Below are positions 13,234 through 44,001 of a stretch of 64,000 bases of DNA, in pieces (position 1 is the first letter of the stretch; each line of letters begins with the position of its first letter). The position numbers and the translations under genes are program-made. The notes under the pieces were generated by a model. The model had not been told where the DNA came from, did no database searches, and was given only the letters and a program-made list of their open reading frames with translations. This DNA is from Mayamaea pseudoterrestris (taxonomy: Eukaryota; Bacillariophyta; Bacillariophyceae; Sellaphorales; Sellaphoraceae), in assembly GCA_027923505.1 (NCBI GenBank), contig BROI01000009.1, positions 806,001 through 870,000 on the forward strand, written 5' to 3'.

Positions 13234-13372
13234 GACCGAAGCCGAGCGAACGCCAGCGAACAGTCAATAAAGAATCGAAGCCCTTTCTAGTTGAAGTTAG
13301 ACTGCAAGCCAGATTAAACATCTCACAAAACTTTCGATCGCGCCGATTAATCCATCGCCCATCATCCCCACC

Positions 13373-17699: not shown

Positions 17700-18096
17700 A
17701 GGTGCTCATAAGCAATGTAGAGATTAGTTACTTGCATGCAGTTCTCTTTGTAATTATCAACATTTCGACTGGCTTTCTCTTCTGGCACCAGACTACATCA
17801 CATATCAGCACAAGGAAGAGTCTGCTGGAACCCAACAATATTTGCCTCGAAAGTAGATAGAGGTGCAAATTCGCTTAACTCGCAGCGACTCTCGCTCCAT
17901 CTTTTGTCCGTTTCTTCAGGTAAAGAAACGGACACGCAACCGTGTGTTGTGGTCGATGACACACCCACATGCCATAAAACAATTGCAAGAAGAGCTGCTC
18001 TTACACTCTCTGGTCAAGTTATCGTCGCAGAGCACAGAGTATTTGTCTCCGCTCACTTCACACCTTGTTGCTTCGTGAACTCACTCAGCGCTCAGC
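17700..18096. other. Leader and promoter region of the homeobox gene, copy 1
   Basis: No protein gene. It holds a perfect 11-bp hairpin (17906-17933) whose loop contains a splice-donor-like cag|gta, and an acceptor-like ctcag immediately before the homeobox start codon. Confidence 0.55.
17906..17933 (+). promoter_or_regulatory. Hairpin in the homeobox gene leader with donor-like loop
   Basis: Stem gtccgtttctt (17906-17916) pairs perfectly with aagaaacggac (17923-17933) around the six-base loop caggta. The same hairpin is present at 47057-47084 in copy 2. If the loop is a 5' splice site, a leader intron would run from about 17920 to 18095. The function is inferred. Confidence 0.4.
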
Positions 18097-19191
18097 ATGT
18101 CGGTCAATGCGAACATTTTTGACCTCGACTGCCCATCGGAGCATTCAAACTCTCTTGGTTTGATTGTCCATCCTCCGACGACCATTTCTTTTGTTGACGA
18201 TGCGTATACGAACAAGGATCAAGTTACCATCTTGCCTAGCAAAGTCTTTCACTTGAGCAATGGGATCCATCAAGCGTTTCCTGACTCGCAGACGCATTGG
18301 GCAGCATTTTCGGTTCTGGAGTGGCTAGAATCATTGGCTTCAGCCGCCGAGACGTCGGGAGCGTCACCGATTATAGTCAATGGTACTCGATTGAGCGAGC
18401 CTTCCTTCCCGCCGATACCGACTCTGAGCAATGACCCGACCACTCCTCGGTGGACGCATGGAGAACCACAACTAGTAATGACGAAAAACAACCGTTTCAT
18501 GGACATGCAGCAACGTGATCCAGCAGGCTGGTGGGGGCTTCGGCAGCTGGAAGACGCGGCGTCGCTAGTCGAAGACATCGGTCGGTTGGAAAGTGAATAT
18601 CACGCCATCTACGAGCGATTCGAATACACGTTTAATTGCATTGTGCTGCAAGCCGAGACATGTGGTTTCGAAGGTAGGCACTTGCTTGATACTCTTTACA
18701 AAGACACGACGCGGAAACTTTGCGATCTTTTTTTAAATACATCGACATCGCATGTAGGGTCGATCGCTGGAGGTATCCCGAAGGTGATCTCAGCTGAAGG
18801 TTCAGCCAAGAAGAATTTCCCGCGGATCATGACCGCGTGGTTGGTCAGCAACTGGACCAACCCGTACCCGGACGAAGAAGGTCTAGCGGAGTTGGCTTTT
18901 GCGACAGATACTTCAGCGACCGTCGTGGGTAACTGGCTGATTAATGCGCGCACTCGCAAGTGGCGGCCGGCCATTGTCAAGGCCTCCAAGCACATGGATC
19001 GACCAGCGTCCTTGTTGCTGGAAGATTCAATCAACATCTTTTCGAATTGTCCATTGCGCACGCTTGGAGACGAAACAACGTCGTCATCGACGGAATGCAG
19101 TGAGTTTGACAGTGGTCACATGCTATCAATTGCAGATGCGTATTCCATGCCCAATAAGCGCTTGAAGTCGGACTATTTTGGAAATATGTGA
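18097..19191 (+). CDS. TALE/KN-type homeobox protein, copy 1
   Basis: Intronless, 364 aa. The homeodomain lies at about residues 238-295: KKNFPRIMTAWLVSNWTNPYP (helix 1 plus the three-residue TALE loop with PYP), then the recognition helix VVGNWLINARTRKWRP, which contains the W-x-N-A-R core. It should be a nuclear DNA-binding transcription factor; its targets are unknown. The N-terminal 230 residues carry no recognised domain but are conserved between copies. The ATG at 18097 directly follows an acceptor-like ctcag. The copy at 47249 differs by a few residues and one codon in a T/S-rich stretch. Confidence 0.9.
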   Translation: MSVNANIFDLDCPSEHSNSLGLIVHPPTTISFVDDAYTNKDQVTILPSKVFHLSNGIHQAFPDSQTHWAAFSVLEWLESLASAAETSGASPIIVNGTRLSEPSFPPIPTLSNDPTTPRWTHGEPQLVMTKNNRFMDMQQRDPAGWWGLRQLEDAASLVEDIGRLESEYHAIYERFEYTFNCIVLQAETCGFEGRHLLDTLYKDTTRKLCDLFLNTSTSHVGSIAGGIPKVISAEGSAKKNFPRIMTAWLVSNWTNPYPDEEGLAELAFATDTSATVVGNWLINARTRKWRPAIVKASKHMDRPASLLLEDSINIFSNCPLRTLGDETTSSSTECSEFDSGHMLSIADAYSMPNKRLKSDYFGNM

Positions 19192-19320
19192 TAGGCGATG
19201 ACTAATTCAAGTTAATGATAGCATAGTATATGTTTGTAAACGACATAAATGCTGCAATCTTAGACAGCGTGACGCTGACAAACCCATTGTACATTTGCAC
19301 GTATAGAAGCAACATTTCTC

Positions 19321-19807
19321 TCAATCCCCTCCAGCGTTCCACAGTCCAGAGTCCACACATCGCTTCATATGGTATTCTGCCTCCTCTGGTTCAAGTTTCA
19401 TAAGTGCTGCCTTGAGTTGCTCGACGTCTCGGCTCTCAAAAGCCTTGACCATATCTTCGGGCAATGTATCGATCACCTCCAGCGGGTCAAGCCCTCCCGG
19501 TCCTAATCGCTCCTCCTTTGGCACCTCCTCCAAGTTTTTACTAGTTGCCTCTACCGCTCGTTCAGCATCAATTTCTCGACGTTTTACCACGGCACGCTGA
19601 ACAATTTTATCCTGAAATGACTTGACGCCCTTAATAAACTCTTCCAAGTGCTCACGCTGCTCCATTCGCTTGAAGAACGGCAAAATAACATTGCCTGGAT
19701 GGGTGTCGAGTGTTTTGGCTAGTTCGGCAATGTTCGTAATAATTTGCGACTGTCGGGCCGTTCGTTGCATCGCCTCGCGCCTGCCATTCATTTCATCCTC
19801 GAGCGAC

Positions 19808-19839
<32 letters not shown>

Positions 19840-20724
19840 CAAGAGAACTTCTGCATGTTGAAGCAAAAAGTCGCGCGAACCGTTCAAATCAGGGATCTTC
19901 ATAAAGTCTTCCACAACGTCGGCGTACTTTTCGCAAAATTGCGGGTACGTTTCCATCACTCCAATATCAGCCTTGTTGAACTTTTCCACTGGACCAGTTG
20001 CAGGATTAATAATTGTTTTCGATGACGTTGTTTTACTCGCACCTTCATCGTCGACCGCTCCATCAGCCTCTGCTTCATCGCTCTTGCCCAAAACAGTGGG
20101 CTCCAATGTGTCCTCGTCTTTCGGAGGAATGAATCCGCTCTCAGTGTAGTTCTTCTTTCCAGCCGTCTTACTGACCTCTGTCTTGTCGGAGACGACCGTT
20201 CCAAGATTGTCAACGTTCCACTTCTTGTTCTTTTCGTACTCCTCAAGCTTTTCGTAACGCTTAGCATTGGCTGCCTCGAGTTCGTCCAGTTCAGCTTGAA
20301 GGGCTTCAATCTCGTCCAAATCATCGTCATCGTCCGAACCAGCCGCTTGTTGCTGCTTGATTTTTTGAATATCGTGGCGAAGAATCTTCATGCGCTGATC
20401 AGCTTGCTCAATCTGTATGTTGGTTTAGCAAATGTGAGATTGTAGTAGATGTATGTACATCGTTTCCGGTGGTACTAGTCACGAATAAAGACTCCTCTCT
20501 TTACACAAAGAGCACAAGGTCTCCACCATTATACATATTCTTCGTATGATACGCACCTGCGCCAGAATATTCTTCTTATCCTTTTCCTCGTTCTCCTCGC
20601 GCTCGACTCTGCTGCGATGCTTCAGACGGAACCAGCTCTCTCGATCAATGTTGGGGTGAACATCGTCCTCATCGTCCGATAACTCGATCTTGTCCCACTT
20701 GGAGTAGTCGAATGGTTTAGCCAT
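19321..20724 (-). CDS. CDC37: Hsp90 co-chaperone CDC37, copy 1
   Basis: Two exons: 20724-20557 and 20412-19321, with a 144-bp GT-AG intron (ILAQ|IEQAD), giving 419 aa. The N-terminus [17 protein letters not shown] followed by [12 protein letters not shown] is the CDC37 kinase-binding domain, including the SDDED site comparable to the conserved CK2-phosphorylated serine. A coiled-coil follows, then the middle Hsp90-binding region, and a C-terminal domain ending [18 protein letters not shown] ... [12 protein letters not shown]. It loads client protein kinases onto Hsp90 in the cytosol. It diverges from the GOT1-like gene with 348 bp between start codons. The copy at 48470-49873 is nearly identical and both appear functional. 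Confidence 0.92.
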
Positions 20725-21072
20725 GGCTTTGAAGGACGTTGACAGCAAGAAAGTTGATGAAGATTATGGTCAAGCTACGGTTCGCAGGAGGCAGCGAAAA
20801 TGCTTTGGAGCGAGTCGAGTCGCTGCGTTTCTCGCCGCGCCCGCCGCGCCAACGTGCTCCTTGGCGCTCGTAAATCTTGGCTTCGGTAACAGTCAGCGAT
20901 ACACATCGCTTTGTAGCGAACGCTAAGCGAGTCAACACGTGGAGATACACCAACAACATCAACCAAGTCCGTTTCAACTTGCTTTTCTTGATCAAGCCGC
21001 AACTTTTAACTTGTCGGAAAGAGCAGCACTCGCAAGTTCATTGCCAATCAGCAGTTGAAGCGTTTGTGGAAA
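20725..21072. promoter_or_regulatory. Divergent promoter between CDC37 and the GOT1-like gene, copy 1
   Basis: 348 bp separate two start codons on opposite strands. No TATA box or known element was identified. This stretch differs between the two copies by several substitutions and small indels, more than the coding regions beside it. Confidence 0.45.
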
Positions 21073-22113
21073 ATGGAGTCTGTGGCCTTTACCTGGAAAA
21101 ATGCTTCGCCGCTGCTGCAACGGCGGAATACCAAGCGCTCTTTGCTTTTGGTTTTCCTTTTCAATGCTTTATTACCTTTCTCCATGTCGACTCGAGAAGC
21201 AAACTATCAAGTCTCTCATTCCTTTCGACGGACGAGCTCTTGCTCCAGTCCTAAATGGTTAACTAAGCATCTTATATCTGGCAACGAAAAGGACAATCTG
21301 TCGTTTCCCATTTCCGTCAAATTGTCGCTTCTTGTTCAACTTCGAGGCGGAGCGTATGACTCAGACTATCGAGACGATGCAGATGCAACGGCATACTACT
21401 CCTACGCGGAATCTCACCAGCAGTCAAGAGGCGGCAACACTGGTGGAAGATACCAGGAAGACTGGGAGATTCCAGCGTCGGCAGCAGCAGCCGCCCGCAA
21501 CCGTCAATCACAGCCACAGCAACCATTACCGGTACGCACTAGTGGCAGCACCACATATGATGAAGACTATTACCTTGACCGTGGTCTCCCGTCTCCTCGG
21601 GAGCGACAACGAAAAGGCAGCAGTGCAGCATCCAAGTATGTTCCTTCTATTCTTTCGCGAGGCAACAAGAAGATTGGATTGGCACTACTCGGTTCTGGTC
21701 TTGCAGTTACTATGCTTGGAATTAGTCTGTTTTTCAACAAGACGCTGATGCGTCTCGGCAATCTACTTTTCATTGGAGGCGTGCCATTGGTCATTGGACC
21801 GACACGGACCATGGGCTACTTTATGCAGCCGGCCAAAGTGCGAGCGACAGGGTGCCTAGCATTGGGAATCTTTCTCGTCTTTGTTGGATGGCCCGTCTTT
21901 GGGATTGCACTAGAAGTTTTTGGTCTCTTGAACTTGTTCGGAAACCTATTTCCAATCTTTTGGGCTGTAGCGAAGCAAACTCCGATTGTTGGAAGCTTGC
22001 TGAAGCAAAGTGACGCGGGAAAACGTACAGGCGGAGCAGCAAGGCGACCAAAATTCACGGACGACCAGGATGATATCCAGCGTCGGCGTGAGGAGGAGAA
22101 AAGATACTATTGA
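21073..22113 (+). CDS. GOT1/SFT2-like membrane protein, copy 1
   Basis: Intronless, 346 aa from the ATG at 21073; a short upstream in-frame extension has no ATG. The C-terminal half (from about residue 198) has four closely spaced hydrophobic segments with the GOT1 pattern: KKIGLALLGSGLAVTMLGI, NLLFIGGVPLVIGPTRT, KVRATGCLALGIFLVFVGWP, then TPIVGSLL. GOT1 proteins act in ER-Golgi vesicle traffic. The N-terminal half is unusual for GOT1: a hydrophobic segment (LLLVFLFNALLPF) after a basic stretch, then LRGGAYDSDYR and a Ser/Gln-rich low-complexity region, so the protein may carry a signal or extra anchor. The basic C-terminus RRREEEKRYY faces the cytosol by homology. Confidence 0.8.
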   Translation: MESVAFTWKNASPLLQRRNTKRSLLLVFLFNALLPFSMSTREANYQVSHSFRRTSSCSSPKWLTKHLISGNEKDNLSFPISVKLSLLVQLRGGAYDSDYRDDADATAYYSYAESHQQSRGGNTGGRYQEDWEIPASAAAAARNRQSQPQQPLPVRTSGSTTYDEDYYLDRGLPSPRERQRKGSSAASKYVPSILSRGNKKIGLALLGSGLAVTMLGISLFFNKTLMRLGNLLFIGGVPLVIGPTRTMGYFMQPAKVRATGCLALGIFLVFVGWPVFGIALEVFGLLNLFGNLFPIFWAVAKQTPIVGSLLKQSDAGKRTGGAARRPKFTDDQDDIQRRREEEKRYY

Positions 22114-22550
22114 CATTGAATAATCGCGCTTGACTGCTGTCGTAAACAATGTTGAACAGCAAGCAAGCTACCTAGATCTTGCTTGGACTGCGTATCCTGT
22201 TCCGCAATATAACTTTTAACTATGTGTGATTACATAAATTGCCTGTGGCCAGGTAGTTGTGCGCAAATCATGTCGTCTGAGGAAGAATACAACTTGGCTG
22301 AGCTAAAAACTACGTTTATACGGTAATTGTACGGTAATTGGAAGGGCTGTGAAGGTAGCTGCAATCGTACCGGTATTGATTGCATACGCACGTGAGTTTT
22401 CGATCTTGCTTTCACCCAACGCTCGAGCGCGATGGCTGGAGGTTCGGCGGCAGGCCCATCACATCAGCGACGAAAGATATCGTTGATGCCGACACCGAGC
22501 AGCCATCATCTCCCTGTCACGAACTACCCGCCAAGCAGCAAATCACCACG
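22114..22550. other. Intergenic region, identical in both copies
   Basis: No gene recognised. A short direct repeat (acggtaattgt/acggtaattgg) lies near 22320-22340 and a CCGGTA motif near 22369. No difference was found between this stretch and 51260-51696. Confidence 0.55.
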
Positions 22551-23465
22551 ATGACAAACTTTGGGAAAGCAGCAATTCTTGCGGTTCTTTTCGGAGCAGC
22601 GCAAACCAACGCGTTTGTTGTCCAAGGACCTTCTCGGTCGCAGACACGGCTTGCATCGTCTGTGAGTGATTTGCCTGCCGACGCTAAGCTCTCGAAAGAC
22701 ATTTGGAGATCTGTATCGCCGACAGTCGTCCAAGGTAACTCATTGAGGACGTTTCAAACCACCTCAGCTGATAGAGTGCAGGTTCTTTTGAAGACAGAAG
22801 GACGCCCGCTCAATTCAAGGTAAAGTGTAGTGGTCACGTTCTTTTGAACAGTCGCTGTTTCAAAGATTCATCTTCTCATTAATGCACTATCATTTGCTCA
22901 CAGGGTTGAGCTATGGCAGGGACCAGATTATCTCCCGTTCAAGCTGGGCATCTATCTTGAGGACGGAAGCTTGTCGCCCTTCAACGGAGTGGTCGAGACG
23001 CCGTATGACTCAAATACTATCGCAGTCTACAATACAGGAAACTTAGAATTTCCTCTCAAAGCTTGCGTTGTGCCTGACAAGCAGGATCTTGGTCCAATCA
23101 AGGAACGGCTCATGGACTCGGCCGATCCGATTACAATCCAGGGAGGAGCTCTGCGAACGTATCCCTTTGATGCGTCGGTCGCGAGCGTGCAAGTTTGTTT
23201 GAAAACGGACGGTCGCCATCTTCAAGCGCGCATTGAATTGCTCCAGGGGCCTAACAACAACAAGCAGATTATTCAGGTCTATTCTTCGGACGGCAAGAAG
23301 CGTTCATTCTATGCCGTCTTTGAGACACCAGAAGCGGGTTGCGTCGTTCGAATCGTCAACGAACAGACAGTTGAGTATCCTCTCATGTCTTGGGTTGAGC
23401 CTTACAAGATTGACGACTCGTTTTCGGCTACAGAACCTGTCATGGGCGGCGGTAGCAATCGCTAG
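22551..23465 (+). CDS. Plastid-targeted two-module beta-rich protein of unknown function, copy 1
   Basis: Two exons: 22551-22819 and 22904-23465, with an 84-bp GT-AG intron, giving 276 aa. The first 22 residues form a signal peptide ending QTNAF, the Phe context for import into complex plastids. The mature part is an internal duplication of a module of about 90 residues (57-146 and 165-256): VVQGNSLRTF ... VQVLLKTEGRPL ... VELWQGP ... ETP, then TIQGGALRTY ... VQVCLKTDGRHL ... IELLQGP ... ETPEAG. I recognise this as a conserved algal plastid-type sequence but know no function. The intron falls in module 1. ATG at 22551; an upstream extension begins without ATG. The intron differs at about a tenth of positions from copy 2, although the exons are almost identical. 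Confidence 0.75.
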
Positions 23466-23859
23466 GCCGTCGTGCTTACGATAGTTGTTGCGATTTGTAA
23501 TGTGGGTGGCAAAGCAAAAATATTTTTGTATGGGATTCGCTTCTATGTAGACTATACATCGGGTTTTATTTCTGTAACCTTTAATATACCAAAAAGTGTT
23601 GTATAAGATTGAGGATGTGACTCAAAGCAAAAATCACTTCAGTCAGTGCTCTGACTTGCACAATATCATGCAGGTAGCTAAATATTCAATCAATCCCGCT
23701 TCAGCGCGCGCTCGTGACGTCAACGCGATGGGTCATTTCACTTGGTGGTTTCATGTTCGGTTCCACGAGCAGCAGCCAGTTCTTCTGCAGCTTCATTAGC
23801 CTCGAAGACAATTCTACCATTAACAGTCTGTTGATCCTGCTGATCTTCCAGTGAAGCAA
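23466..23859. other. Intergenic region, copy 1
   Basis: 3' flank of the two-module protein and promoter of the next gene. No coding potential or known element seen. Confidence 0.5.
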
Positions 23860-25295
23860 ATGGTGCGTCAAAACTCTGTCAAGGCTGCCTTTTCCAAGCC
23901 GGAGGCTGTCCGCTCAAGGTGAGTCGGTTTTTTGCCGTGCTCCTCTTGCATATCCTCAAAAGAACTTGGCCTCTCCGAGGTTGTGACGGATTGAAACAAA
24001 AGAGTTTCTTCATTTATAGGCGTTTTGAGCTAAATGTCTAAGCTATTTAACGCCGCTCGTTTAAAATTGCAGTACCTCATTTATAACGAAATGCTGCCGA
24101 TGCTGCTGCCTCTTTGTGTCGCTGCTGGTCTTTCTCATGATCCTCGGTGCCGGCAGCGGGCCAGTCAATGACAATGCACTATCGGGCCAAGCTCATCATG
24201 CTTCAATTCAAAACAAAGTTAATAGCAGTCGTGCTCGCGATTACGATGCAACTGCCTGGCATTATGATAAGTCGAGCGAATACGATTATGACGAGGTGGA
24301 AAATGTCGTTGGCGAAGCCAAGCTCATTCTGGAGAAGGCTGAATAAGATGTTTTGCAGGAAGAAGAGTCATTGTTGAAAAAGGCAGTTACGGCGGGAGGA
24401 CGAGCACTGCGTGCCGGCATCAAGAAAGTACTCGGGCTGGTGCAACGGACCAAGACATAGAAGCAATCGCTGCGCAAGTAGAGGAGGAAGTAGTTTCGGA
24501 TGCCATGGATGAGTTGAGAGAAGATGCGGAAATTATTTTACAGGAAGAACTTGATGGCGTGAGCGAAGACGCCTATGGAGATGTGTCCATGGGCTACGAT
24601 CGCGCCACTATTCGACATTCCATAGGAGACCGAAGGGATCATTATACATCCGACATGCGCACTCGAATTGGCGGTCTGGAGCATGACTATCAGGAGCAAT
24701 TGCCAGAAAATCTTTTGGAACTTGAGAAGAAGTTGTTAGAAAAGAAGGTTGAGCGCTAAATATGGTCGAGATGTTCATTTGAGCATTGTCGCCGGAGAGG
24801 TTCGAGAGCGACGGACGATGGCTACCTCCGTTCTACCAAGAACAAGGAAGGAAAGTGCGAGTAAGAATAGGAATCATTATGGCACAGACGACGGATAGCT
24901 ATGGAGGCGGTGGCGGGACAACTACCTCGTCGGGCTATGGCGGTGGAACTGCGTCTACTGGCTACGGCGCAGGAACGACTTCAGGTGCTCGAACGAGCTC
25001 ATATGGAGACACGGCAACTAATGAAGCGGCATCCCAGACGAAAGATGATGATGGAGCTAGTGACGATGATGATGTGTTGCTGGTACAACTGGCGACGACA
25101 GTAGCGAGGCGACGATAGAGGCTCGGATAATGACAATGACGACGACACCGCTGATGACGAAGACGGCAATGTAAGTTAATCTTATCTCTTGCATCGCGCT
25201 TCCTGACTCCACAAGCGCTGACAAATTTTGGTTGTTCACCTGCGCTACACAGGACGATGACGCAAATGATGGCGACGACAATATGCGCAAAATAG
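23860..25295 (+). pseudogene. Acidic membrane-anchored protein, copy 1, disrupted
   Basis: This aligns with the intact gene at 53009-54441. Exon 1 (from ATG 23860, to 23918) is unchanged, but exon 2 (from 24073) has a CAA-to-TAA change at 24344 and several one- and two-base indels, for example ctcgggctgg for ctcggagctgg near 24435. The protein cannot be read through. The damage is of indel type and continues into the following KARI copy, so poor consensus sequence is as likely as true decay. Confidence 0.75.
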
Positions 25296-25632
25296 ACGTG
25301 TCAGACTGCTATTTTGGGAGACTACACATTTTTTAACATTGAAATACATATAGTACGTCATGTATATTTTATTTCGGAAGAGCTGGAGCGATGTTGATTT
25401 ATTTTATGTACTGGTGCTGGTGCGCTAGCTGAGATTTTGAACCGCGCTATTCGGTCGTGAGGTGCTGCTCCTATTCTAATTTGCACGATTTACATCGCTC
25501 GTGTGAGTTGAAGTCATCGAACGCTAATGAGCACTACTAGCCGTGATTCTGGCCAGCCAACGAGGCGCGCCATCCGCGTCTGGAAAATGCAAACGAAACA
25601 TCGACCATCCACATTCTTGCACTCGTAACAAT

Positions 25633-26465
25633 CGACCAGCAATTTCCACCGGCCGGCAGTCTCCTTCTTTTTCCTTCGGCGTCGCGTTTCGCCCTATGCA
25701 CACTGCATTTGCCGCGCGAACATCGTTAGATTGGCGTAAGTATAGGTCCATGTTGCTCGTTTTCCAGTTTCCAAACAGCCGCTGCGCTTCGTGACGGTGA
25801 AGAAGTATAAGCCCCTCGCTGCGATATCTTTGACGAAGATTGCTTTGCATACCGGAATCAATTTTGCTTTGTCTGAGTCTTAGAGTTGCCGCTTCGATGT
25901 CTGCTATGAATTTCATTTTCATCTTGTCGTCGCACCTCGTCACATTCCACTCATTTCCCACCGTGTCTTGAATTCTTTCTTAGATTTTAGCTTCTGATGT
26001 TTTCAAGACACAAGAAGTCAAGTTTGCCGATACGACGGAAACGGTGTGTCAAGGGTCGCGACCTTTTCCTCTGCTTCCCAAGGCTTTTGAGGTGCAGATT
26101 GGCGTGATCGGATGGGGCTCGCAGGCGCCGGCACAGGCGCAGAACTTGGCGGGGAGTCTGGTACCGAGGCTATCGTTTCCATTGGTCTTCGTCGAAGGCT
26201 CTGCCAGTTTTCGACGAGGCGAGGCAATGCGGTTTCAGCGAAGACAAGGAACTCTTGGCGGATGTTCTCCGTCATCAAGGACAGCGACTTAGTTATTTTG
26301 TTGATCAGCGATGCCATGAGCAAGACTTTACAAGGAGATTTTGCGACCATGACCTGGAGCCTTGGGTCTTTCATGGATTCTTGCTGGGTTATTTGGAGAG
26401 TATCGGCGAGGACTTTCCGTCGAAATGGATGTTATTGCTGTGTGCCCCAGGGCATGGGTCCTTCA
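25633..26465 (+). pseudogene. Ketol-acid reductoisomerase, copy 1, truncated and indel-rich
   Basis: Aligned with the intact KARI at 54796-56659. The start codon of exon 1 is not preserved (about 25638), the signal-peptide exon has lost bases, and exon 2 has missing homopolymer bases and short gaps (for example near 26060 and 26145). Homology stops at 26465, in the codons for MGPS, removing more than half of the enzyme. The sequence then continues into an unrelated minus-strand gene, so this is both a breakpoint and a disrupted copy. Confidence 0.85.
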
Positions 26466-26479
26466 CGGCCGCATCGCAT

Positions 26480-27910
26480 TCACCGGTAGATCCGTTGCTG
26501 GACGCATCGACGAACGACCGCCGCAACAATGAATGTAGTGTCGTCTGCAGACAATATTAAATTCAACTTTTCGTCCTGATGCATCTGACAAGTCAGGCAG
26601 CGGCGAACAATATCACGTGTGGCAACTGAAGGGTCGATTCCGCTCACGATAAGCTGCTGAGTCGTTCCACGTTTGAGTGCATCAGCTAAAGAGTTCTGAA
26701 GATCAATGTAAACATGGACATTTGAAAAAATCTTATTTGCGGCCAAAGTACTCGCGTTGATCGCATGCGAGCGCCAGTGAGTATTCGCTGTCGCCTTGCA
26801 AATGCATCATGTCGCCAAGGGTGGATTGGGTTCATGCACCTTCAGACCGTTCCCGAACAATGTGCTTGCAAGTCAATGTAGATCGGCCCAGTCATGAACG
26901 CGTCATTACGCCGCTTCGTATTCCTGCTGTGAATCTTCTCCGTGTTATAATGCTTTTCAACACCGATGGGTTTTCATAGCGTTACGCCATTGTATAAGTT
27001 TGACGGGTGTCGTTTGTCAAACAGCAGTGTGCTCCAGTGAGATCACCTTGTAGTATCGTAAACGACTGGGAAGTAGCTCGTGATCATTTCCTTGCAAACA
27101 GTAAGGTGAGTCTGGGAGCGTCGGCGAAACAAAGTGCGTCATGAGAAACAAGATATCCATAAACCCATTGTGAACAGCAAGTGGCACTCTTCGTCCTGCC
27201 ACGCTGGTTCAACCGCATCAAAATCGACAGTGTCAAAGGATATGGCGCAAACAAGGGTGACTGCATCGAGAGCGGTGCCCGCGACATGCTCGCGACAACT
27301 TCAAACACCCTCCACATGCCGACATTCATCTTCCAAGCCTCGCGCTGAAGTTTCACCTTGCGCTCGCAGCACTAACTCGGAAAGACGCAACACGCGAATG
27401 TGCCCTCCTCCGCCATTTCCAAATCGGTCGGGGTACTCTCGCTCGATATTTTCGTACAGCGCCCGCCGCAAAAATGCGTACGGGAGGGCAGCAACCAGCG
27501 TCGTGGTAGACTGGTTGAACATTCCACCGCATTGTCAGGCCATTCTCGCAAGGTTGCCATTTGGTGGTCGCAAAAAATCGAACGTCATCCGTTCGAGTCA
27601 GTTCCTGGTACGGCGCAAGGTTTGCTCCACTGACTGGGATGATCGCTTGGTTTGCTGTTGCTGCTGCTCCTCTTGGTGCTTGATTGCATAATCGGCAATG
27701 ATTTGCTCTGCCAGTCGCCTGTAACGTAATTAACGCCTTGCTTGGTCCACAGGTCAAAGCTCATAATTGTGCTCGTTCAAAAGGCAACGCTGGATGGATT
27801 GAGAACAACCTCTCGGCAGAAGCATCATCAGCGAGCTGACGACGACGGAAACATGTAAAAAGAAGTTGTAGGAACGAACAGTCCATGAGTTCCGTAGCAT
27901 CAATGGCTTG
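26480..27910 (-). pseudogene. PARN/CAF1-like poly(A) deadenylase, disrupted
   Basis: Recognisable pieces appear in changing frames on the minus strand, in the right order. YAFLRRALYENIEREYP lies at about 27470. The hallmark VPLAVHNGFMDILFLMTHF (about 27195-27140) matches the conserved His-Asn-Asp-bearing block of CAF1-family nucleases. It is followed by a block like LPDSL...YDTRY, then an RRM-like end with LSADDTTFIVAAVV (about 26520). This set fits PARN, a 3' exonuclease that shortens mRNA poly(A) tails. At least half a dozen frame changes prevent a single reading. The N-terminal limit is uncertain and introns may add to the confusion. The 3' end abuts the KARI breakpoint. Confidence 0.55.
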
Positions 27911-28799
27911 ATTCGCCGATGGCAGAGTCTTGGCCACAGCAGCAACAGCAGCTGCAACGTAAATCCCTCCATTTATCGCCTTCCTCTTCCTCGTCATCGC
28001 TGGGCGCCTCTGCTTTGACCGGAGACGCCACTATATTCGAATGAAACAATGGAAACTTAATTGTATAATGCTGTATCGTTCCGGCGCTCGTTTTCAGGAT
28101 ATGTAATTTTGGGCAGCAAATCTTTGCGGGGTGGACCACGACGTGATCCGTTTGGAACTTGAATACCTGTCATTTCCTCGTCTCCGACAAAAGCAGCCGT
28201 CTGCGCGATGAATCAAATCATTCGATTGCTGTGGAAGCAGAATATGAACAACAAGTGTAAGTTTACAGCAAGTCGGACTAATGCAAAAAGCTGGTATTTG
28301 TTCTAAAAAGTCTGTGCATCAAATTTCATCGAGCACTGGTTGCAGCAGCCTCATACCTCGATAAAATTCTCTGTAGTTTACGTTCTACCATCTTGTGCTG
28401 GCTGTATGTTACGCGGATGGGCAGGATTCTCAGATAGTGGTAGCGGGTCCAACCACTCTTTGGATCGTCGCTCGAAGTCTCCGGGCTTACCGTTACGACC
28501 TGGGGTACTCTTTGTCAAACAGTATTTAATTAACGGTAAGGAAACGAGTGCCAGTGAAAACTGCGTCATAGGCAATGTTGAGAAACGAGTGCCGGTGGCA
28601 TGCCTGCAATGGTTGGAAACGTGCCCAGTGAAAACTACGTCATGCTTATATATGCCTACCGCGCCAAGGTGCCAGCGCAAGAATTGTGCGCGGGCGTGTA
28701 TTTCATTCGTCTGCTCGCACGACTAATGTACGGTATGTGTTGACCTTACATCTGCATGAGAATAGAGCATAGTAATCAACGAAGATAGAAGAATCGAGA
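27911..28799. other. Unassigned stretch between the deadenylase and the copper ATPase
   Basis: The left part may hold the N-terminus of the minus-strand deadenylase (an acidic run, APSDDEEEEGD, reads near 28000). From 28140 on no gene is supported. An imperfect direct repeat (gtgccagtgaaaactgcgtca / gtgcccagtgaaaactacg) occurs near 28550 and 28625. Confidence 0.4.
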
Positions 28800-31700
28800 A
28801 ATATGCAGAGCAATTTTTTCGGTAGGCTCAACCTCCTCCAACGACAATCAGCCAGCTGTAGCTGCTGCTTCACTGCAAACGACGGAGACTACTGTTGCAA
28901 ACGACAGGACTTGGAAGAGGCGCAGCAAAACTCGTTGCTGCCATGCAGTGTCAATTCGCACTCCATGGCCCGACGTGCAGCGCCTGTTCCGGGCCGTTGG
29001 CTGTCCGCCTTCTCGTTCAACAATCGCCAAGGAGAATGAAGAAGCGCCAAGTGCCGGCGACGGCCCTCCGACGATTCAAGTTTCTCTCTTTCCGGAAGCG
29101 ACTCTGCGAGTAAAAAATATTCTGAAAGGACTTGTTTCGCCGTATCAAATCATTGAGACGATTCAAGACATTGGGTTTGACGCGGAACTCACCAGTGAAC
29201 AGGCTGCAGACACTTAACACAGCTGCATCTTCCACTCTGCGAGTCGTTCTGTTTACGTTTACGAATGCAGAGACTGCTGAAAGGGCGTTTGCATCTTTGA
29301 CGAAAAATCCCAAGGTTCAAAGCGTTCATCCAGTCGAAGATCAGCCGCAAGAGACCAAGCGAAATTGCAGTTATTTTGTTTGGAAGCCAAGGGACGACGA
29401 AAATCATCAAAATACTTGGAGCTAGGCGAAGACAAAGGAGAGAGATTAGAAAGTACAGAGTTTGTAAGCTGCACGCTCCGTGTAACCTTTGACGAAACGT
29501 CGGGGATGGGCGTTCGAACGCTTTTGCGTGAGTTGCAAGAGCAGTTGGGATTCAACAATTCACATGACGACGACATTGAAGTCCAAGACGCGCTGGGCTT
29601 TCAATGTAATCAAGAGGCGGTTGAAGCGCGGCGACGCGCAGAGGTTGCGCGAGTGCGTTGCGATTTTTTTCTTTGCGCTGGCGCTCGCTGTTCCGGTTGG
29701 AGTTGTTTCCATGTTGCTTGGAATGATACCAAGAACCATGATGCTTGTCCATACTTATCCCTTTTGGCGGATTACTTGGCTTGAATTTATCACGTGGCTA
29801 CTAACGACGCCGATTCAGTTCATTTCCGGCGCTCGCTTTTATCGAGAATCCTACTACTCGATCAAGTCGCGACACTTTGGAATGGGTTTCCTCATCTGCC
29901 TTGGTACTAGTGCCGCATACTTTTACTCGGTGGCTGCCACATTATACAACGCCATGCAGCCAGAAGGCACTGAGATGCTTGCCACGGCGTTTGAAACGTC
30001 GGCCTTTCTGATAACCTTTGTGATTCTCGGAAAATATCTGGAGCTCAAGGCAAAGTCTCGAACGTCGCGAGCCATTGCGAGTCTGGCGCAGCTCACTCCT
30101 CAGTCGGCAACCCTTGTAGGCACATGGAATCTTGATCTTGATCGAGAGGATTCCTGCGTCGAGGAGAGGATTAATTCTGTTTTAATACAACGTGACGATG
30201 TATTGTTGGTACGACCTGGCGAAAATGTTCCAATGGATGGCATTGTGGTGCATGGTGCCTCATCCATTGACGAAAGCATGTTGACCGGCGAGTCTTTACC
30301 CATCGTCAAGCAGGCTGGTGACAGCGTTATTGGTGGAACTGTGAACCTGGATGGAGCGATCCGAGTTCGGGTAACAAAGGTGGGCAGTGATACAGCCATG
30401 GCGCAGATCATTCGCTTGATCGAATCGGCGCAGTCTACCAAGGCTCCGGTAAGCTTTAAAGAAGTGCTTATTCGCTTTTCTTCTATAATGAGAACTAAGT
30501 CTTATCCCGAATTGCATTTTTTATGCAGATTCAAGAATACGCCGACTGGTTGTCGGCACTTTTTGTGCCCGTGGTTCTGCTCATCTCTGTTTGTACCTTC
30601 ATTCTTTGGGCAATCCTTCTGAATACAGCGGCACTTGATCACGTAAAAGGTAGCTGGTCGTATTTGGACCATGGGTTGAATGATTGGACGCTTCCACTCA
30701 TATTCGCGATTTCAGTGCTGGTGATTTCCTGTCCATGTGCGCTGGGCCTGGCCACACCGGTAAGTCTTATTCGGATTATGGTTGGTTCCAAGAATGATCG
30801 TCCTATAAATGTCTTATTAAAATCAACTTGTTTGTTTACAGACGGCAATAATGGTTGGATCAGGTGTAGGAGCCCGAAACGGAATTCTTTTGAAAAGTGG
30901 CGAAGCGATTGAGCAATCGCGTGAGCTTAGGGCAATCGTGTTCGATAAAACAGGCACGTTGACCTTTGGCCGGCCATCAGTGCAAGACGTGTTACTCTTG
31001 TCGGATCGTTGTGCTACAATTTTCGACTCTTTTGTCGATGAAAAGGTTATGTCGCAAGTGCAGACAGCTGGTGGCGCAACTATAATTGAGTCAAGCGTGA
31101 ACCGTATCAAGACATTGGAGAACATATTTTTTCTGGCTGCAAGCGCGGAGCATGGCAGCGAACATCCACTCGCAAAAGGTGAGAGGAGTTCTATGGCACC
31201 TGACTTCTGTTTGAAAGGACGCGCGTCTGACATGTCTTATTTTCAGGAATTATCGGCAAGGCAGCAGACCTGGGCATTGGCGATGGACTTTCGCGACCAT
31301 TAATTCGCCCGGATGACTTCGAGAATGAACCGGGCGCTGGTATACGCTGCACTATTAGTGGGCATCGCATTCATATTGGTAACCGACGCAGTTTGAAGAC
31401 GAATGTTATTGCGTTCGGGACAGATGCCATGGACGCAATGGAATACCTAGAAACGAAGGGGCAAACAGCGGTCATTGTGTCTGTTGACGGTCAAGCCGAA
31501 GCAGTGATTGGTCTTATTGACAAGGCTAAGGACGAAGCGGCAACAACTGTTAATGTATTGAGACGGGGACTTGGAATTGACGTTTACATGCTGACTGGTG
31601 ACAATATTCGGACTGCAAGAGTTGTCGCATCGGAGGTTGGTATCGCTCCGTCGAATGTGATTGCCGATGTGCTTCCAGAAGGAAAAGTTGATTGCATTAA

Positions 31701-32494
31701 AGCTTTGCAAGCAAAGTTTGGCGGTGGTGTAGCCATGGTCGGCGACGGAGTTAATGATGCGGCCTCACTGGCTTGTGTAAGTTTACGAGGATGTCAATGA
31801 TTACGCGACGTCTGGCTGATATTTAAAAGTGCCTCTCGTTATTCTGCAGGCTAACATAGGAATAGCAGTCGCAGCTGGCACCAATGTCGCGATCGAGTCG
31901 GCATCGGTAGTACTCATCAATTCGAATTTGACTGATGTTGTCACAGCAATTCACCTGTCCAAGAGTATCTACAATCGCATTCGCTTAAACTTTCTTTGGG
32001 CGTTTGGATACAACACTCTTGCCATCCCTTTGGCCGCAGGAGCATTTTATCCAATCATGAACATGGTCGTTCCTCCTTATATTGCTGGATTGGCAATGAT
32101 ACTCTCTTCGCTCACTGTATTGTCATCGTCCTTGTTGCTAAATCAATATCAGCCTCCGAAATACGATAAGGAGTACAAGCGATTTGGCGACGGTGTGGCT
32201 TTATCAAAGGTGCACATGACTGCAGCTGGCCAAAGGGTGACGATTCAGTGCTGTGAAGGAATGCGGCAGGGAAAGCCCTGTTGCTGCCCACCCGATGCTT
32301 GCTTCTGCGATGAATGTACGGAGCACGGGCGTACTTTGACAAGAGACGACGATTCATCGACTGTATCAAGTCAGATTGAAAGTAATTATCCTGGTTGCCA
32401 GTCATCCTGGGGCAAGCCCTGCAACTGCAAGGACAACTGTCGTTGCGGTCCGGGCTGCAAATGTTGCCACGATGCAACCAAACGGACGACGTAA
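28800..32494 (+). CDS. Copper-transporting P1B-type ATPase with metallothionein-like tail; 5' part disrupted
   Basis: Four short introns are clear: 30449-30528, 30760-30841, 31179-31246 and 31777-31849. Across them read all core P1B motifs: SMLTGESLP (actuator), [12 protein letters not shown] (copper-binding CPC), [10 protein letters not shown] (phosphorylated Asp), SEHPLAKG (HP locus), TGDN and VGDGVND. It should pump Cu(I) across a Golgi or thylakoid-type membrane using ATP. The last 85 residues hold 16 cysteines in two clusters ([13 protein letters not shown] and [16 protein letters not shown]), like a copper metallothionein. The 5' part (28800-29640) contains a heavy-metal-binding domain ([12 protein letters not shown]) and its partner strands, but in several alternating frames, so the start codon and N-terminus cannot be fixed. 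From about 29640 the frame is intact. The break pattern may be sequence error. Confidence 0.85.
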
Positions 32495-32534
32495 ACGAAA
32501 TAGCAGACTTCATCGAGTACTGAAAGTTAACTTA

Positions 32535-33337
32535 TTATTCAATTTGCCCACCTTTCAAAACAAGTATATGCCTATGGTTGATGTGAGGTAAAGATTGAAG
32601 ATGAGGAGGATTCTTCCAATGCAAAAAGTCGCGAACGTCCTGTAGACGAGAGCGTAGCTCCATTTCTGCGTCAGCGACATCGTCCTCTGTGCAGTCTTCA
32701 CCCAGTTTCCATCTTTTTGCATAAAGAAGTGACAAGCGTGAGCGAAGGTGATTGCCGTGAGACAACGCCTGATTAGCACAATTTTTGCCGCAAGTTCATC
32801 ATCTTGTCAGAAGTATGCAGCATAAGCTCGTCACATTCCCACTTACAAAATCCAGTGGCATACATTTTCGCCAACATGATACGAAAAGGAGTTTTCCGCT
32901 AATACCTTCAAGGGTTGAGTGGACGATGGCCGAGGTACGTGCAAGAGTCCGTCATCTGCAACTGTCGGCACCAACCCAAACTTTTCGTAAAGTATGTAAT
33001 CGTACATGGTCCTGTATTCTTTCAATACTTTTATCCTGTGCAATTCATAAAGGTTTTGATGCTTCTTGGACCGCTTTAGTGCGTCAAGTTGGTTGGTACT
33101 GACAATGCTTTGCAGTTCGCTCCAGGTTGGCGGTGGCACTTCCTCGTCTTCGGCACCATGCATCTGGGTGGTGCTACTGCGCTGCCAAATGACGACTTGA
33201 ACAAGATGCTTGGTATTCAAAGTAGCATATCTCATCGGAACGTTAGAGACTTGAAAGCCTGATGATTTTTCTATTCTAGGAAAGAGCACAGCGAAGGCAG
33301 CCATGATTTGACTTTTGCGGCCGGCGCCGAGGACCAT
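32535..33337 (-). CDS. DUF3605-like protein, copy 2
   Basis: Exon 1 starts at the ATG at 33337 (MVLGAGRKSQ) and runs to about 32850; a second exon covers about 32768-32535. Exon 1 ends in NSFSYHVGENVCHWIL and the last exon has VRDFLHWKNPPHLQSLPHIN, which together match the DUF3605 pattern (N-F-Y...HW-LW and F-W-N-P-LQS...H-H-LV). The exact splice is unresolved: a gtaagt donor at 32848 does not keep the frame with the cag acceptor at 32769, whereas a weaker gtatgc donor at 32863 does. Function of the family is unknown. The gene diverges from the glycosyltransferase at 33620. The matching 5' end in copy 1 is at 1-159. Confidence 0.55.
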
Positions 33338-33619
33338 GTTGATGGATGTCCCTGCAGATGGTACGCGATACGTCACCGGGAGAACTAGCTCCTATTGGGG
33401 ATCTTTGTTGCGTTGTTTGTTTATATTCCTTGCAAAATACTGCAGTTGCATGCCGTGAAGGACGGAAATGCCTGCACATGCAGGATTTGCGACGTGACGG
33501 AAAATGATCACCTGTCGGAGCGCAACTGAATCTGTCATAGCGGTAATCAGTCATTCGCGGCCCGCGCCGCGCGATTCGTCGTCATTCAAAACGATCATCC
33601 GACATCCGACGGCGCAACC

Positions 33620-34993
33620 ATGGTGCAGGTCCATCGCCTCGCGACGCCCCGCAGCCGCACCAAGCCTCATCTTGTATTGAATGGAACCAAAATACTCTGT
33701 GGCGTGATCGTTCTGATTTGCGTCATTCTCTTTATCGAAACGTCAACAAGCACGACAAGTCGACCTGATGCTGCTGCTAGATCGTCGTTACTGCAGCTTC
33801 GCACGAAGAGTGCAAGCGCGGGCAACGATGTCTCGCAAAAGAAGGGATTAGCTACAGTTGCTTTTGCTGTAAGCATCACCGGGTGTGGTACTGATCCTAT
33901 CACGGAAGGAGCTGCAGTATTGATGCACTCCATTCATCGAGCATCAGTGCACGGATCGCTTAGCGGAAAGTACGACTACGACTTGTTTGCCATTTACCAC
34001 CCGCAGGCTGCCGAATGTGCAAAGCCATTACAGAAAATTGGGTGGAATTTGCTTGAACGAGATGTTTTTGTAAAAGTCAGCGACATTAAAGGTGACTATC
34101 TGCGCGAAAAGATTGAATCAAATGGATGCTGTGGAGAAAAGGAACTGATCAAGCTTGAAGCTTATACGCTCACCGATTATCCCATTGTCGTACACCTTGA
34201 TCTTGATGTACTGGTACTAAAGCCCATGGATGACGTCTTTGACATGATGCTGGCGACAGAGTCAGTGGATGCAGCACAATACTCGGACATTTTGATGCCG
34301 TATCCACCGCAAACAATGCCTGCTCGCATCAACGCCTTCTTCACCTACGACTACAATATGGTCAGTCCTCTCACGGTGCATAAACCAGTACAAGGAGGTC
34401 TGATCATTCTACGTCCCGATTTGCACGTCTACGAGGAATTTCGGCAGATTGTTTTGGAAGGTGACTTTCGCTCGAGCCACGGCTCAAACGGCTCGGGATG
34501 GGGCGGCAAAGTCGGGCCGTTTCACGGATCCATGACGTTTCAAGGCATTGTTCCATATTACTACAATGTTTTGCACGAGGGAAAGGAATCGCTAGTTTTG
34601 AATCGCTGCGTCTACAACCAAATGTGTGACAATCCACGCGACCGACCAACTAAAAACGATATCGTTTCAGGAACATGTCGAACGGGAGAAGCAGAATGCG
34701 AGGATTGTCGGTCTCGGCCGCTCGAGGACGTAGTGACGACGCATTTTACACTCTGCCAAAAGCCATGGTGGTGTCTTCCGCATACACAGGATGCGATACA
34801 GCACCGACTCTGTCAGAAGCTGACACGCGAATGGTATCGGGTGCGTTCTGAAATGGAACAGTCATGGGGTCGGTCTGGTCAAGGTGCAGGCAACTATATG
34901 CAGGATATTTTCTTTGGATATTGCCAGCACAGCGGCCACCAAGGGTACACGCCTATTGGCGAACCATATGGAGCTGTCAGCAGCAAATTGTAA
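33620..34993 (+). CDS. Type II membrane glycosyltransferase, GT8-like, copy 2
   Basis: Intronless, 457 aa, about 97% identical to the protein at 452-1816. Same membrane anchor, DxD context (VVHLDLDVLVLKP) and cysteine-rich tail. Relative to copy 1 it has a three-residue gain in the stem after the anchor (KSASAGNDVS) and about a dozen substitutions, several non-conservative (VLGSLGG to VHGSLSG, SQG to SHG). This is the most diverged intact gene pair in the block. All recognised motifs are intact. Confidence 0.8.
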   Translation: MVQVHRLATPRSRTKPHLVLNGTKILCGVIVLICVILFIETSTSTTSRPDAAARSSLLQLRTKSASAGNDVSQKKGLATVAFAVSITGCGTDPITEGAAVLMHSIHRASVHGSLSGKYDYDLFAIYHPQAAECAKPLQKIGWNLLERDVFVKVSDIKGDYLREKIESNGCCGEKELIKLEAYTLTDYPIVVHLDLDVLVLKPMDDVFDMMLATESVDAAQYSDILMPYPPQTMPARINAFFTYDYNMVSPLTVHKPVQGGLIILRPDLHVYEEFRQIVLEGDFRSSHGSNGSGWGGKVGPFHGSMTFQGIVPYYYNVLHEGKESLVLNRCVYNQMCDNPRDRPTKNDIVSGTCRTGEAECEDCRSRPLEDVVTTHFTLCQKPWWCLPHTQDAIQHRLCQKLTREWYRVRSEMEQSWGRSGQGAGNYMQDIFFGYCQHSGHQGYTPIGEPYGAVSSKL

Positions 34994-35458
34994 TCGATGG
35001 TATTGCAACACTTGTTATACGCGAGCCAGGCAGAAACGGCGCCGATGAAGCACAACCTAAAGCATCCAACGTGTTTTCGCACTGTTTAAAGGTGCTTAAT
35101 GACCGTCGAGTACGACCAGACATTTGAGCCCTGTCTCGTTTCCGTTGCTATTTGGAAATAATATCCACGGCGACTGCCCGTGCTGCACGTGTTTTTAGAC
35201 TTTATTTGAGTAATGACGCGTTTATTTTAACAAGTAGACTTTGCGCAGAGAACCTCTATTTTCAATCCGCAAAGAGCTGTATATTCAAACAGACGAATAC
35301 CAGCTGCACACTTTGGTAAACAGATCAACTACCGGTAGTAGCGTATACAAGGTAAGTCGCAGCGCAACTCATTGTGACATGCGACTTTTCCGTCGGCGAC
35401 CTACAATTACAACGATGAAATTGTTGATGAACTTATCATCGGCCCCAAGTCCGACGCC
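34994..35458. other. Intergenic region between the paired glycosyltransferases, copy 2
   Basis: Counterpart of 1817-2284, with small indels. It has a single accggt unit at 35332 where copy 1 has two. No gene seen. Confidence 0.55.
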
Positions 35459-36850
35459 ATGAGTTCGGCTCAGCGCAGTCGGATTTTTGGATCAACAATG
35501 AACAGATATACAACATATCTGGCTGTATTCTTTATTTTGCTCTTGGTTGCCGTTGTCTTCACCATCGAATCGAACCAAAAGCTTTTGATGCCTGCGCAGA
35601 TCGATGATGTGTCGCTGATTTTTGCCGGCGATCTTACAACGCAAAAGCTCGCTTCGAGACCCATAAAGGTCGCGTACGCAGTATCAATCACGTCGTGCAA
35701 CTCGGGACCATATGCGACTTCCTTAGCAGATGCGGCAGCCGTCTTAAAGCATTCGATCCATCGCGCATCAATTCACGGAACACTCGGCGGTCGCTACGAC
35801 TACGACAGCTTTGTCATCTCTTATCCTGGTGCAAAGGAATGCTCAGCTGCTTTGGAAGATTTTGGATGGAAAGTGATAGAGCGACCAATCTTGGTCAACG
35901 TAAGCGAAATTCGAGGCAACCACATGCGAGAGAATGTCGACAACACGGGGTGCTGCGGCTCAAAGGAGTTCATAAAACTTGAGGCATATACAATGACTGA
36001 TTACCCAATAGTTGTACATCTGGACCTTGACACTTTGGTTCTGAAACCAATGGATGACCTATTCGACGTGATGCTGAACACGTCGCCGACTATCGGCGCT
36101 GATCATTACAAAACCTTCATCATGCAGCATAGCAACAAGAATCAAACGACAATTCCCGATCGCGTCAATGCTTTTTTCACTTACGACTACAACATGGTTA
36201 CGTCAAGTACTGTATATAAACCCGTACAAGGGGGCTTGATTGTTGTGAGGCCTGATCTCAATGTGTATGAAGCGTTTCGCCAAATTGTACTTGAAGGGGA
36301 TTTTCGCAGTGGAGAAGAGCGAAATGGCATTGGTTGGGGCGGAAAGGTTGGACCATTTTATGGCGGCATGACCTTTCAAGGCATAATTCCCTACTATTAC
36401 GATGTTCTTCACCCTGGGCAGGCTCTTGAACTAAATCGATGCGTCTACAACCAAATGTGCGACAATCCCCGCGAGCCGGTTGCAGAAAACAGCACCATAC
36501 CAGGGAAATGCTTAACGAATGAAACCGAATGCGAAGACTGTCGCGCTCGTCCCGTAAATGAGATTGTAACGGCTCATTACACCATTTGTCAAAAACCCTG
36601 GTCATGTCATGCCCATGCCGAGGAATCCATTGGACATCAGCTTTGCCGTAATCTTATGCGTGAATGGTTTCGCGTGCGCTCTGAAATGGAGATTTCTTGG
36701 GGCCGCAAGGGACTGGGAGCGGGTAGTTACGAACCAGACATTTTCTTTGGGTTCTGTCGCGGGCATGGCGACTTTAGTTACCTTCCGATTCAGCAGCCGT
36801 TTGGTCGACCTTTGGTCATCAACTCAGATGGCCATAACACAACTTTATAG
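35459..36850 (+). CDS. Type II membrane glycosyltransferase, GT8-like, second paralogue, copy 2
   Basis: Intronless, 463 aa; about five residues differ from the protein at 2285-3676 (for example HDSF to YDSF and KNFI to KTFI). Membrane anchor at 17-36, DxD at 189-191, and the same set of conserved cysteines. No in-frame ATG lies upstream, which supports this start in both copies. Confidence 0.82.
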   Translation: MSSAQRSRIFGSTMNRYTTYLAVFFILLLVAVVFTIESNQKLLMPAQIDDVSLIFAGDLTTQKLASRPIKVAYAVSITSCNSGPYATSLADAAAVLKHSIHRASIHGTLGGRYDYDSFVISYPGAKECSAALEDFGWKVIERPILVNVSEIRGNHMRENVDNTGCCGSKEFIKLEAYTMTDYPIVVHLDLDTLVLKPMDDLFDVMLNTSPTIGADHYKTFIMQHSNKNQTTIPDRVNAFFTYDYNMVTSSTVYKPVQGGLIVVRPDLNVYEAFRQIVLEGDFRSGEERNGIGWGGKVGPFYGGMTFQGIIPYYYDVLHPGQALELNRCVYNQMCDNPREPVAENSTIPGKCLTNETECEDCRARPVNEIVTAHYTICQKPWSCHAHAEESIGHQLCRNLMREWFRVRSEMEISWGRKGLGAGSYEPDIFFGFCRGHGDFSYLPIQQPFGRPLVINSDGHNTTL

Positions 36851-37814
36851 ATATCATATTAACGTGCTGCCACTGTTAGGCATACTATAATTGCAAGAAT
36901 TTCGTCGCAAAAGTAGATGAACCCCGCACGTAAGAAGGTTACAACTGCATTTTTCCTGTCGCAACACTTTATCGCATCGGTTACTGATGTAATTCCGACC
37001 AAAGGGAGATGCTATTATCAGAGTTTAAAAAGGTCTCGACACTGTTTGAATTTACTCTGACTAATTTGTTTTTAAGGAGGAGCAGATACGCGAGTGCTTG
37101 GCAATCACTCTAACCTTGCATGCCACTTTAGTACTACCTAGCTAACTTCCTCGTGCTCAAAGAAACAATTGGTGCAGTTGGAAGCGAAATATGTGCCATC
37201 CATACTACGGTAGATAGGGACACCTTCCTGTACTGTAATTGTCGGTATTTTACTATCCTGCATTACTTTCTTGTCTACCGGTAGTACGAGAGCATAGCAA
37301 ATTGTGTTAGCAGTGCCGGTAGGTCATGAATCATCAGCCCCGGGCATGATGCGTATCATAGCTCCCGCGTCTCTTTCCTTCGCCTCCATTGTTCTTTAGC
37401 TTCTCATTTTACTGCCTCACTGTTGCAAGTTGGAGGGTGGTCGACGGAGTGACATATATGATACCGGTATTAGGTACATGTGTAGGTCAAGCTGAGTAGA
37501 TTCGAACGCTATACCGACACTTACTTCAACAACATCGTCACTTTCTATCAACGTCATTTTTCAGCTTCAAGATGACCCTGCCTTCGTAAAAAGTGCAAGC
37601 AGAATGTCCCCAATCATCGCTTTACAATAGCCTGCACGGGTACGTCAGCCTTGCGAATTGTGTCCGCATTAAGTGGACCGAAGCCGAGCGAACGCCAGCG
37701 AACAGTCAATAAAGAATCGAAGCCCTTTCTAGTTGAAGTTAGACTGCAAGCCAGATTAAACATCTCACAAAACTTTCGATCGCGCCGATTAATCCATCGC
37801 CCATCATCCCCACC
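36851..37814. other. Intergenic region with the empty retroelement site
   Basis: Shows the undisturbed layout upstream of the TPR-like gene. The 8.7-kb element of copy 1 is absent; the join cattaagtg|gaccgaag lies at 37675/37676. CCGGTA motifs recur near 37277, 37317 and 37463. No gene seen. Confidence 0.7.
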
Positions 37815-38480: not shown

Positions 38481-38900
38481 TCTCGTTGCTTGCTATCCAT
38501 TTCACAACAAACCCATCAACTATTTGGTCATATACAACCTGTATCTGCTATACGCGCCACCTGCTAAGTGGCAACTGTTAAAATAAGGTACCGATTTTTG
38601 CTAATCTCCATATGAAATCCCGTATTTCAATAATTTGTCACTGCGCTGGGAATGGCAGGCACATATGCATCATGTATTCATATCATTCAAGTCTTCAACG
38701 ACTGGAACAGAATGTCAAATTGAAGGATATATACTTTGACACGAGTAAGTTGCGCGGTGCGTCTTTGAGTAAGCGTGCATATAGCCCATCCAACAGCCCA
38801 TGACATTGCATTTTGAAGGCGAGTAGCTTGCGAAACGGCCTTGACAACCGTTTCTTTAAAGTTTGGTCGGTTCTTCGCATGCCGATGAACCAACTGCACG
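38481..38900. other. Intergenic region left of the copia element
   Basis: Matches 14039-14460 of copy 1 and ends where the element begins. No gene seen. Confidence 0.55.
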
Positions 38901-44000: not shown

Positions 44001-44001
44001 T

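Follow-up and report, generated by a model that had tools for sequence, protein, structure and literature searches.

The available portion of Ko et al. 2022 (PMC9516828) describes a setting that is prone to false duplication in genome assemblies, namely, a near-identical tract that lies beside a divergent tract. In the case of Drechmeria coniospora, the part of the report at hand (PMC7500977) describes how one chimeric nanopore read of very great length caused a contig to be misassembled. Among diatoms, the accessible text of Filloramo et al. 2021 (PMC8147415) gives the size of the Canu assembly of Phaeodactylum tricornutum as 57.0 Mbp (Table 2) or 66.8 Mbp (text), with many duplicated conserved genes, for which the authors offered two options: both haplotypes were resolved, or the duplicates are segmental duplications. 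Here, we examined a 64,000-nucleotide stretch (the window) of the diatom Mayamaea pseudoterrestris, C9:806001-870000, where C9 is contig BROI01000009.1 of an assembly of 30.6 Mb in 41 contigs. This window holds the junction of two long direct copies, designated A and B, and four broken genes on the flanks of that junction. Based on sequence comparison, the two copies are very probably alleles that a poorly supported join has placed in a false tandem duplication.

The duplication was mapped via a self-comparison of C9:740001-920000; negative window positions refer to sequence upstream of the window. One direct duplication accounted for the finding. Single-copy stretches cut the alignment of the two copies into four pieces, and the copy A pieces (C9:799191-810499, 819234-820461, 821126-822023, and 822025-832465) were collinear with copy B at 96-99% identity. 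Copy A started 6.8 kb upstream of the window, and its first 3.0 kb was found once more at C9:789101-792117, within the first unit (R1) of an exact tandem duplication located upstream. No further copy of window positions 1-4499 was found among the matches listed, a non-exhaustive list that lacked even the query's own place, and none of positions 16024-24300 was found among the matches listed for that stretch. The flanks of the duplication (window positions 55670-64000 and C9:772028-780000) had no second copy and gave only short matches of 67-86%.

The two copies met at a single junction that showed no microhomology with either continuation and no insert. The left side of the junction was inside a KARI gene, and the right side was inside a PARN/CAF1-like gene. 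An initial annotation of the window had placed a join at 26.3-26.6 kb, and the exact junction fell inside that interval. Error-rich sequence sat exactly at the join, and this location implies poor read support, of which it is an indication and not a measure.

To describe the error-rich sequence, changes between the copies were counted with two aligners. MAFFT scores some indels as substitutions and affine blastn separates more of them, and both sets of counts are given; codon-position and frame counts are from MAFFT alone. For sequence outside the noisy block, the blastn figures cover the two long aligned pieces, with the two short middle pieces left out, and the MAFFT figures cover the remaining A/B alignment (18439 bp). 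With MAFFT, the heavy error zone contained 97 indels and 235 substitutions in 3931 bp, when about 4.5 indels were expected from the outside rate, versus 21 indels and 317 substitutions outside (Fisher p = 1.6e-15). The corresponding blastn counts were 132 indels and 131 substitutions in the heavy zone versus 20 and 278 in the two long outside pieces. The ratio of indels to substitutions was 1.01 in the heavy zone versus 0.07 outside with blastn, and 0.41 versus 0.066 in the rest of the C9 alignment with MAFFT. A naturally diverged pair of sequences on contig C3 was used as a yardstick, and its MAFFT ratio of 0.075 (59 indels and 789 substitutions, summed by hand over 18 of 21 rows after the last 3 rows, a ragged end, were dropped) was near the outside value.

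Counts per 100 bp indicated that small indels were rare along both copies, except on either side of the junction. The indel-rich block that the initial annotation had reported at 24300-29650 was indeed located there, being heavy from 25457 to about 29060 and lighter out to about 24050 and 29664. The noise was not uniform and climbed toward the junction on the left. On the right, the noise was dense up to about 29060, and the copies were clean beyond 29664. The noise edge at 29389 was near the position that matches the end of the upstream 10,090-bp unit (about 29387); nothing was drawn from this proximity, as the dense noise ended at about 29060.

Four coding stretches lay within the block (3966 bp in total), and 64 of their 70 indels broke the reading frame. 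In the eight duplicated open reading frames (ORFs) outside the block (8448 bp), neither of the two indels did so. These results agreed with the earlier description of four neighboring genes broken by small indels and of intact genes on either side. Specifically, frame-breaking indels were present in the gene for an acidic protein (7 indels; no Pfam family was found in a Pfam search), in KARI (11 indels; the clean ORF in copy B matched Pfam KARI_N and KARI_C), in the gene for a PARN-like nuclease (38 indels; Pfam CAF1 ribonuclease), and in the part of an ATPase gene encoding the N-terminus (8 indels; Pfam E1-E2 ATPase, with an HMA metal-binding match under the Pfam cut-off). At the homologous positions, which were the end of copy B and the start of copy A, the frames of the acidic protein, KARI, the CAF1/PARN-family nuclease, and the E1-E2 ATPase were open. 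The rest of that ATPase gene, at the noise edge, spanned 1234 bp with 3 substitutions and 2 frame-breaking indels and was counted neither inside nor outside. The eight outside ORFs were mechanical ORFs, of which three had a Pfam match (desaturase, homeobox, and CDC37) and two (ORFs 454 and 475) had no Pfam match; of the remaining three, the 147-aa ORF was searched and matched.

Table. Positions of the two copies, their junction, and the surrounding zones (window coordinates; contig coordinates are added for the copies).
Feature	Position	Strand	Basis or content
Copy A	-6809..26465 (C9:799191-832465)	+	self-comparison
Copy B	26466..55669 (C9:832466-861669)	+	self-comparison; head to tail against copy A
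Copy A/copy B junction	26465..26466	.	compared with clean B beyond 55669 and clean A before -6809
Light error zone	24050..25456	+	11 indels versus 1.6 expected (MAFFT)
Heavy error zone, left flank (end of copy A)	25457..26465	+	blastn, 41 indels and 26 substitutions; MAFFT, 33 indels and 46 substitutions
Heavy error zone, right flank (start of copy B)	26466..29387	+	blastn, 91 indels and 105 substitutions; MAFFT, 64 indels and 189 substitutions
Residual zone in ATPase gene	29388..29664	+	single-base frame-breaking indels at 29389 and 29664
Copy B stretch near-identical to copy A	29665..32996	+	7 substitutions and 0 indels in 29665-32900
Clean counterpart of left noisy flank, copy B	53262..55669	+	open acidic-protein ORF 53262-54326; start of open KARI ORF 55286-56659

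The kinds of changes in the block were also distinct from those outside. Substitutions at codon positions 1, 2, and 3 numbered 48:50:59 inside versus 32:25:94 outside (p = 2e-5). Losses outnumbered gains in the heavy zone with blastn (101:31) and with MAFFT (73:24). On the + strand, the blastn counts of A/G versus C/T exchanges were 68:11 inside versus 76:76 outside (p = 3e-8), and the imbalance had the same sign on the right of the junction (55:10) and on the left (13:1). Delahaye and Nicolas (PMC8486125) reported that nanopore reads lose more bases than they gain and that A-G exchanges are in excess in read orientation. Both of these features were found in the heavy zone with both aligners, and, judging from the letters, the changes in the block look like raw nanopore error. 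The common sign on the two flanks suggests that the junction was crossed by a single + strand read or by several reads that share an orientation. The errors of PacBio continuous long reads are mostly insertions, and such reads were rejected as the source because losses dominated here.

The same counts bear on the possibility that four adjacent genes have really decayed into pseudogenes beside a duplication point. Decay would explain why the frames were broken and why pieces of the proteins were still recognizable, but it would have to raise the ratio of indels to substitutions to 6 times (MAFFT) to 14 times (blastn) the outside value, make A/G exchanges strand asymmetric, and stop 2.4 kb to the left and 3.2 kb to the right of the junction, even though the genes on its two sides differ. 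It is not evident why mutation or selection should favor one strand across 4 kb of unrelated genes that lie on both strands. We rejected decay, which is scarcely credible given this spectrum and location, and we agree with the initial annotation that it is less likely than one bad read.

We propose that the diatom is diploid and probably has a single copy of the region on each homologous chromosome, A and B being the two alleles. During assembly, or when gaps were filled later, the path would have followed the copy A allele and then jumped about 33 kb back upstream onto the copy B allele. Its guide would have been one unpolished nanopore read or very few of them, most likely a chimeric read. 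The raw letters would have been kept in the contig since accurate reads found a better match in the clean counterparts. If so, the broken genes are sequencing error, and what looks like a tandem duplication is a false heterotype duplication with a junction that presumably no cell carries. The back-jump landed in the near-identical tract of the two copies, immediately before the point (about 32997) at which their divergence rose sharply, to a mean of 2.8% over 32901-37675 and up to about 6% per 500 columns. We infer the allelism, the low read support, and the nanopore and chimeric origins from the sequence. The earlier claim of a poorly corrected read linking two haplotypes was supported by one junction, noise on both flanks, clean homologous positions, a nanopore-like spectrum of shared orientation, and allele-like differences elsewhere, with the qualifications that the left flank was not significant with MAFFT and that the homopolymer prediction held weakly.

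The cleanness expected of a genuine junction argues against a second explanation, in which a real tandem duplication is fixed on at least one homologue and its junction was badly polished through ambiguous short-read mapping of near-identical copies. If the junction were fixed, its reads would align best at that place and correct the noise; with the junction at normal depth in the cells, spanning reads should have allowed polishing to clean it. In addition, the noise hugged the flanks of the junction and was rare elsewhere (21 indels in the remaining 18439 bp of aligned sequence). The exact tandem duplication R1/R2 upstream (10,090 bp; C9:782028-792117 and 792118-802207, window positions -23972..-3793) provided a further comparison: its mapping is more ambiguous, but its units were identical, with 0 mismatches, and its PARN-like frame was open. 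Because R1/R2 was clean though harder to map, mapping ambiguity as the sole cause of the noise was judged to be a weak explanation. A fixed duplication is consistent with the exact abutment of the copies, with further long direct repeats in the assembly, and with the 0 to 8% divergence and element differences, which are also typical of tandem paralogues, but we consider it quite unlikely. The R1/R2 unit boundary had a 2-base GC microhomology, and the duplication cut one copy of the metal-ATPase gene; this tandem is either a real duplication or a second assembly loop.

A false join between alleles is consistent with the differences between the copies, whose divergence ranged from 0 to about 8% per 500 columns. 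In the outside ORFs, 94 of the 151 substitutions were at third positions and the frames were kept, which is an allele-like pattern that recent paralogues also show. Copy-specific words exist because the copies differ by 317 substitutions in the 18439 aligned bp outside the block. Each copy also carried an insertion of its own. An 8.7-kb insertion was present in copy A alone (window positions 4500-13233; the empty site in copy B was 37675/37676). It had split direct repeats (4500-4731/4975-5205 and 4844-4974/13103-13233), and positions 4500-10000 had 97% copies on contigs C1 and C2. Its ORFs of 1019 and 1161 aa matched no Pfam family at E 0.001, and a 433-aa ORF had weak Pfam matches only (integrase PF00589, E 0.038). 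The insertion may be a tyrosine-recombinase mobile element of a kind that is sparsely represented in Pfam. The insertion in copy B alone (about 38904-44001) contained a reverse transcriptase (PF07727 at 41242-43158), which we take to be of the Copia type, and its right-hand kilobase was nearly identical to a repeat found widely in the genome. These silent-biased changes and mobile-element-like insertions in one copy each would fit diploid alleles and also paralogues; the copies were considered alleles because the join was judged to be false, not from independent evidence. A short ORF that was the same in both copies (22380-22823 and 51526-51969) had a partial match to PF25192 (positions 1-40 of 209), a diatom pyrenoid shell protein.

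The lack of homology at the junction is relevant to a third explanation, a rare real rearrangement in which a homology-free exchange between homologues placed alleles A and B in tandem in a minority of the cultured cells and was caught by one or a few reads. Its sequence signature would be the same as that of a chimeric read, and the available portion of PMC9266582 cites frequent mitotic recombination in Phaeodactylum tricornutum. If this explanation were true, the cells themselves would generate allele-in-tandem duplications. However, a chimera would be expected to leave a homology-free junction, whereas homologous exchange would not, and a second unlikely step, in which the assembler favored the minority molecule, would be needed. 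Thus, we regard it as very unlikely.

Several points weighed against a false join that was guided by a nanopore read. The excess of A/G over C/T exchanges was weaker with MAFFT than with blastn (98:54 inside, p = 4e-4, and 88:90 outside); by flank, the MAFFT counts were 80:43 on the right and 18:11 on the left, the latter not significant alone (p = 0.26). A>G versus T>C changes in MAFFT numbered 62:25 overall and 11:7 on the left, where the strand orientation rests on few substitutions. The loss of bases in homopolymers, as described in the initial annotation, held only in part and its enrichment was weak: runs of at least 4 contained 5 of the 32 single-base losses (background 0.049, p = 0.02), and runs of at least 2 contained 17 of 32 (background 0.43, p = 0.16). 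A nanopore source was inferred because the error spectrum fits. Our conclusion, including the presumed low read support, is based on the comparison of sequences. C9:740001-920000 was without any N, and neither an N run nor an insert marked the junction. Finally, the other long direct repeats (the 10,090-bp R1/R2 and one at 12.07 kb on contig C8) may reflect real tandem duplication in the genome.

The repeat on contig C8 (C8:34960-41927 and C8:47033-54000) was direct, with a 12,073-bp spacing and 99.96% identity (3 mismatches in the 6968 positions of the part compared). A direct repeat with a 38.9-kb spacing on contig C3, from C3:220118 and C3:259051 onward, was near-identical over its first ~300 bp (one 1-base gap) and then had ~9% substitutions. 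This pair, the one used as a yardstick above, was rejected as a second false join because its indel ratio was ordinary at ~9% substitutions and repeat sequence lay to the left of 259051; this sequence was a genome-wide repeat with at least 41 matches, its own included (40 of 97 candidates were scored). Window positions 28541-28643, about 100 bp within the noisy block, had more than 100 partial matches in the genome (71-97%), often in arrays stepped by ~42 or 84 bases, and may represent a minisatellite or a unit that encodes a repeat domain. A tandem array of ~168-bp units that were roughly 78-90% alike was located 10 kb to the right of the window (C9:880221-884234). A conserved 18S rRNA motif had no exact match across the 30.6-Mb assembly, and ribosomal DNA may have been left out of it. 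A fucoxanthin-type light-harvesting protein was matched, which, like the pyrenoid shell protein match, is indicative of a diatom, and two other light-harvesting proteins matched chains of entry 9vfj only, at the cut-off used.

Users of the assembly would take KARI, the PARN/CAF1-like nuclease, the metal-ATPase, and the desaturase for recent tandem duplicates and the four broken genes for pseudogenes; with a false join, most of this apparent duplication and of these pseudogenes probably dissolves. False duplication by a bad join is a well-known phenomenon, and the present case is useful as a warning. A junction-centered zone with a high ratio of indels to substitutions, flat codon positions, and a strand-asymmetric excess of A/G over C/T exchanges is a possible read-free diagnostic for suspected duplications.

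The locus resembled the false heterotype duplications of the Vertebrate Genomes Project, as far as the available part of PMC9516828 describes them, in that two alleles would stand side by side in one contig, with a boundary at the edge between near-identical and divergent sequence and linking sequence of doubtful read support. It differed in that the link consisted of ~4-5 kb of raw-read-like letters and not an N gap. The P. tricornutum Canu assembly, as presented in the accessible text of PMC8147415, is likewise that of a diatom and has many duplicated conserved genes. With the D. coniospora case, in the portion of PMC7500977 at hand, it would share a contig extended along a read whose parts come from places far apart and chimeric-read break points without sequence bias. 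In contrast to that case, the two places joined here were homologous copies of one region, and the result mimics a tandem duplication.

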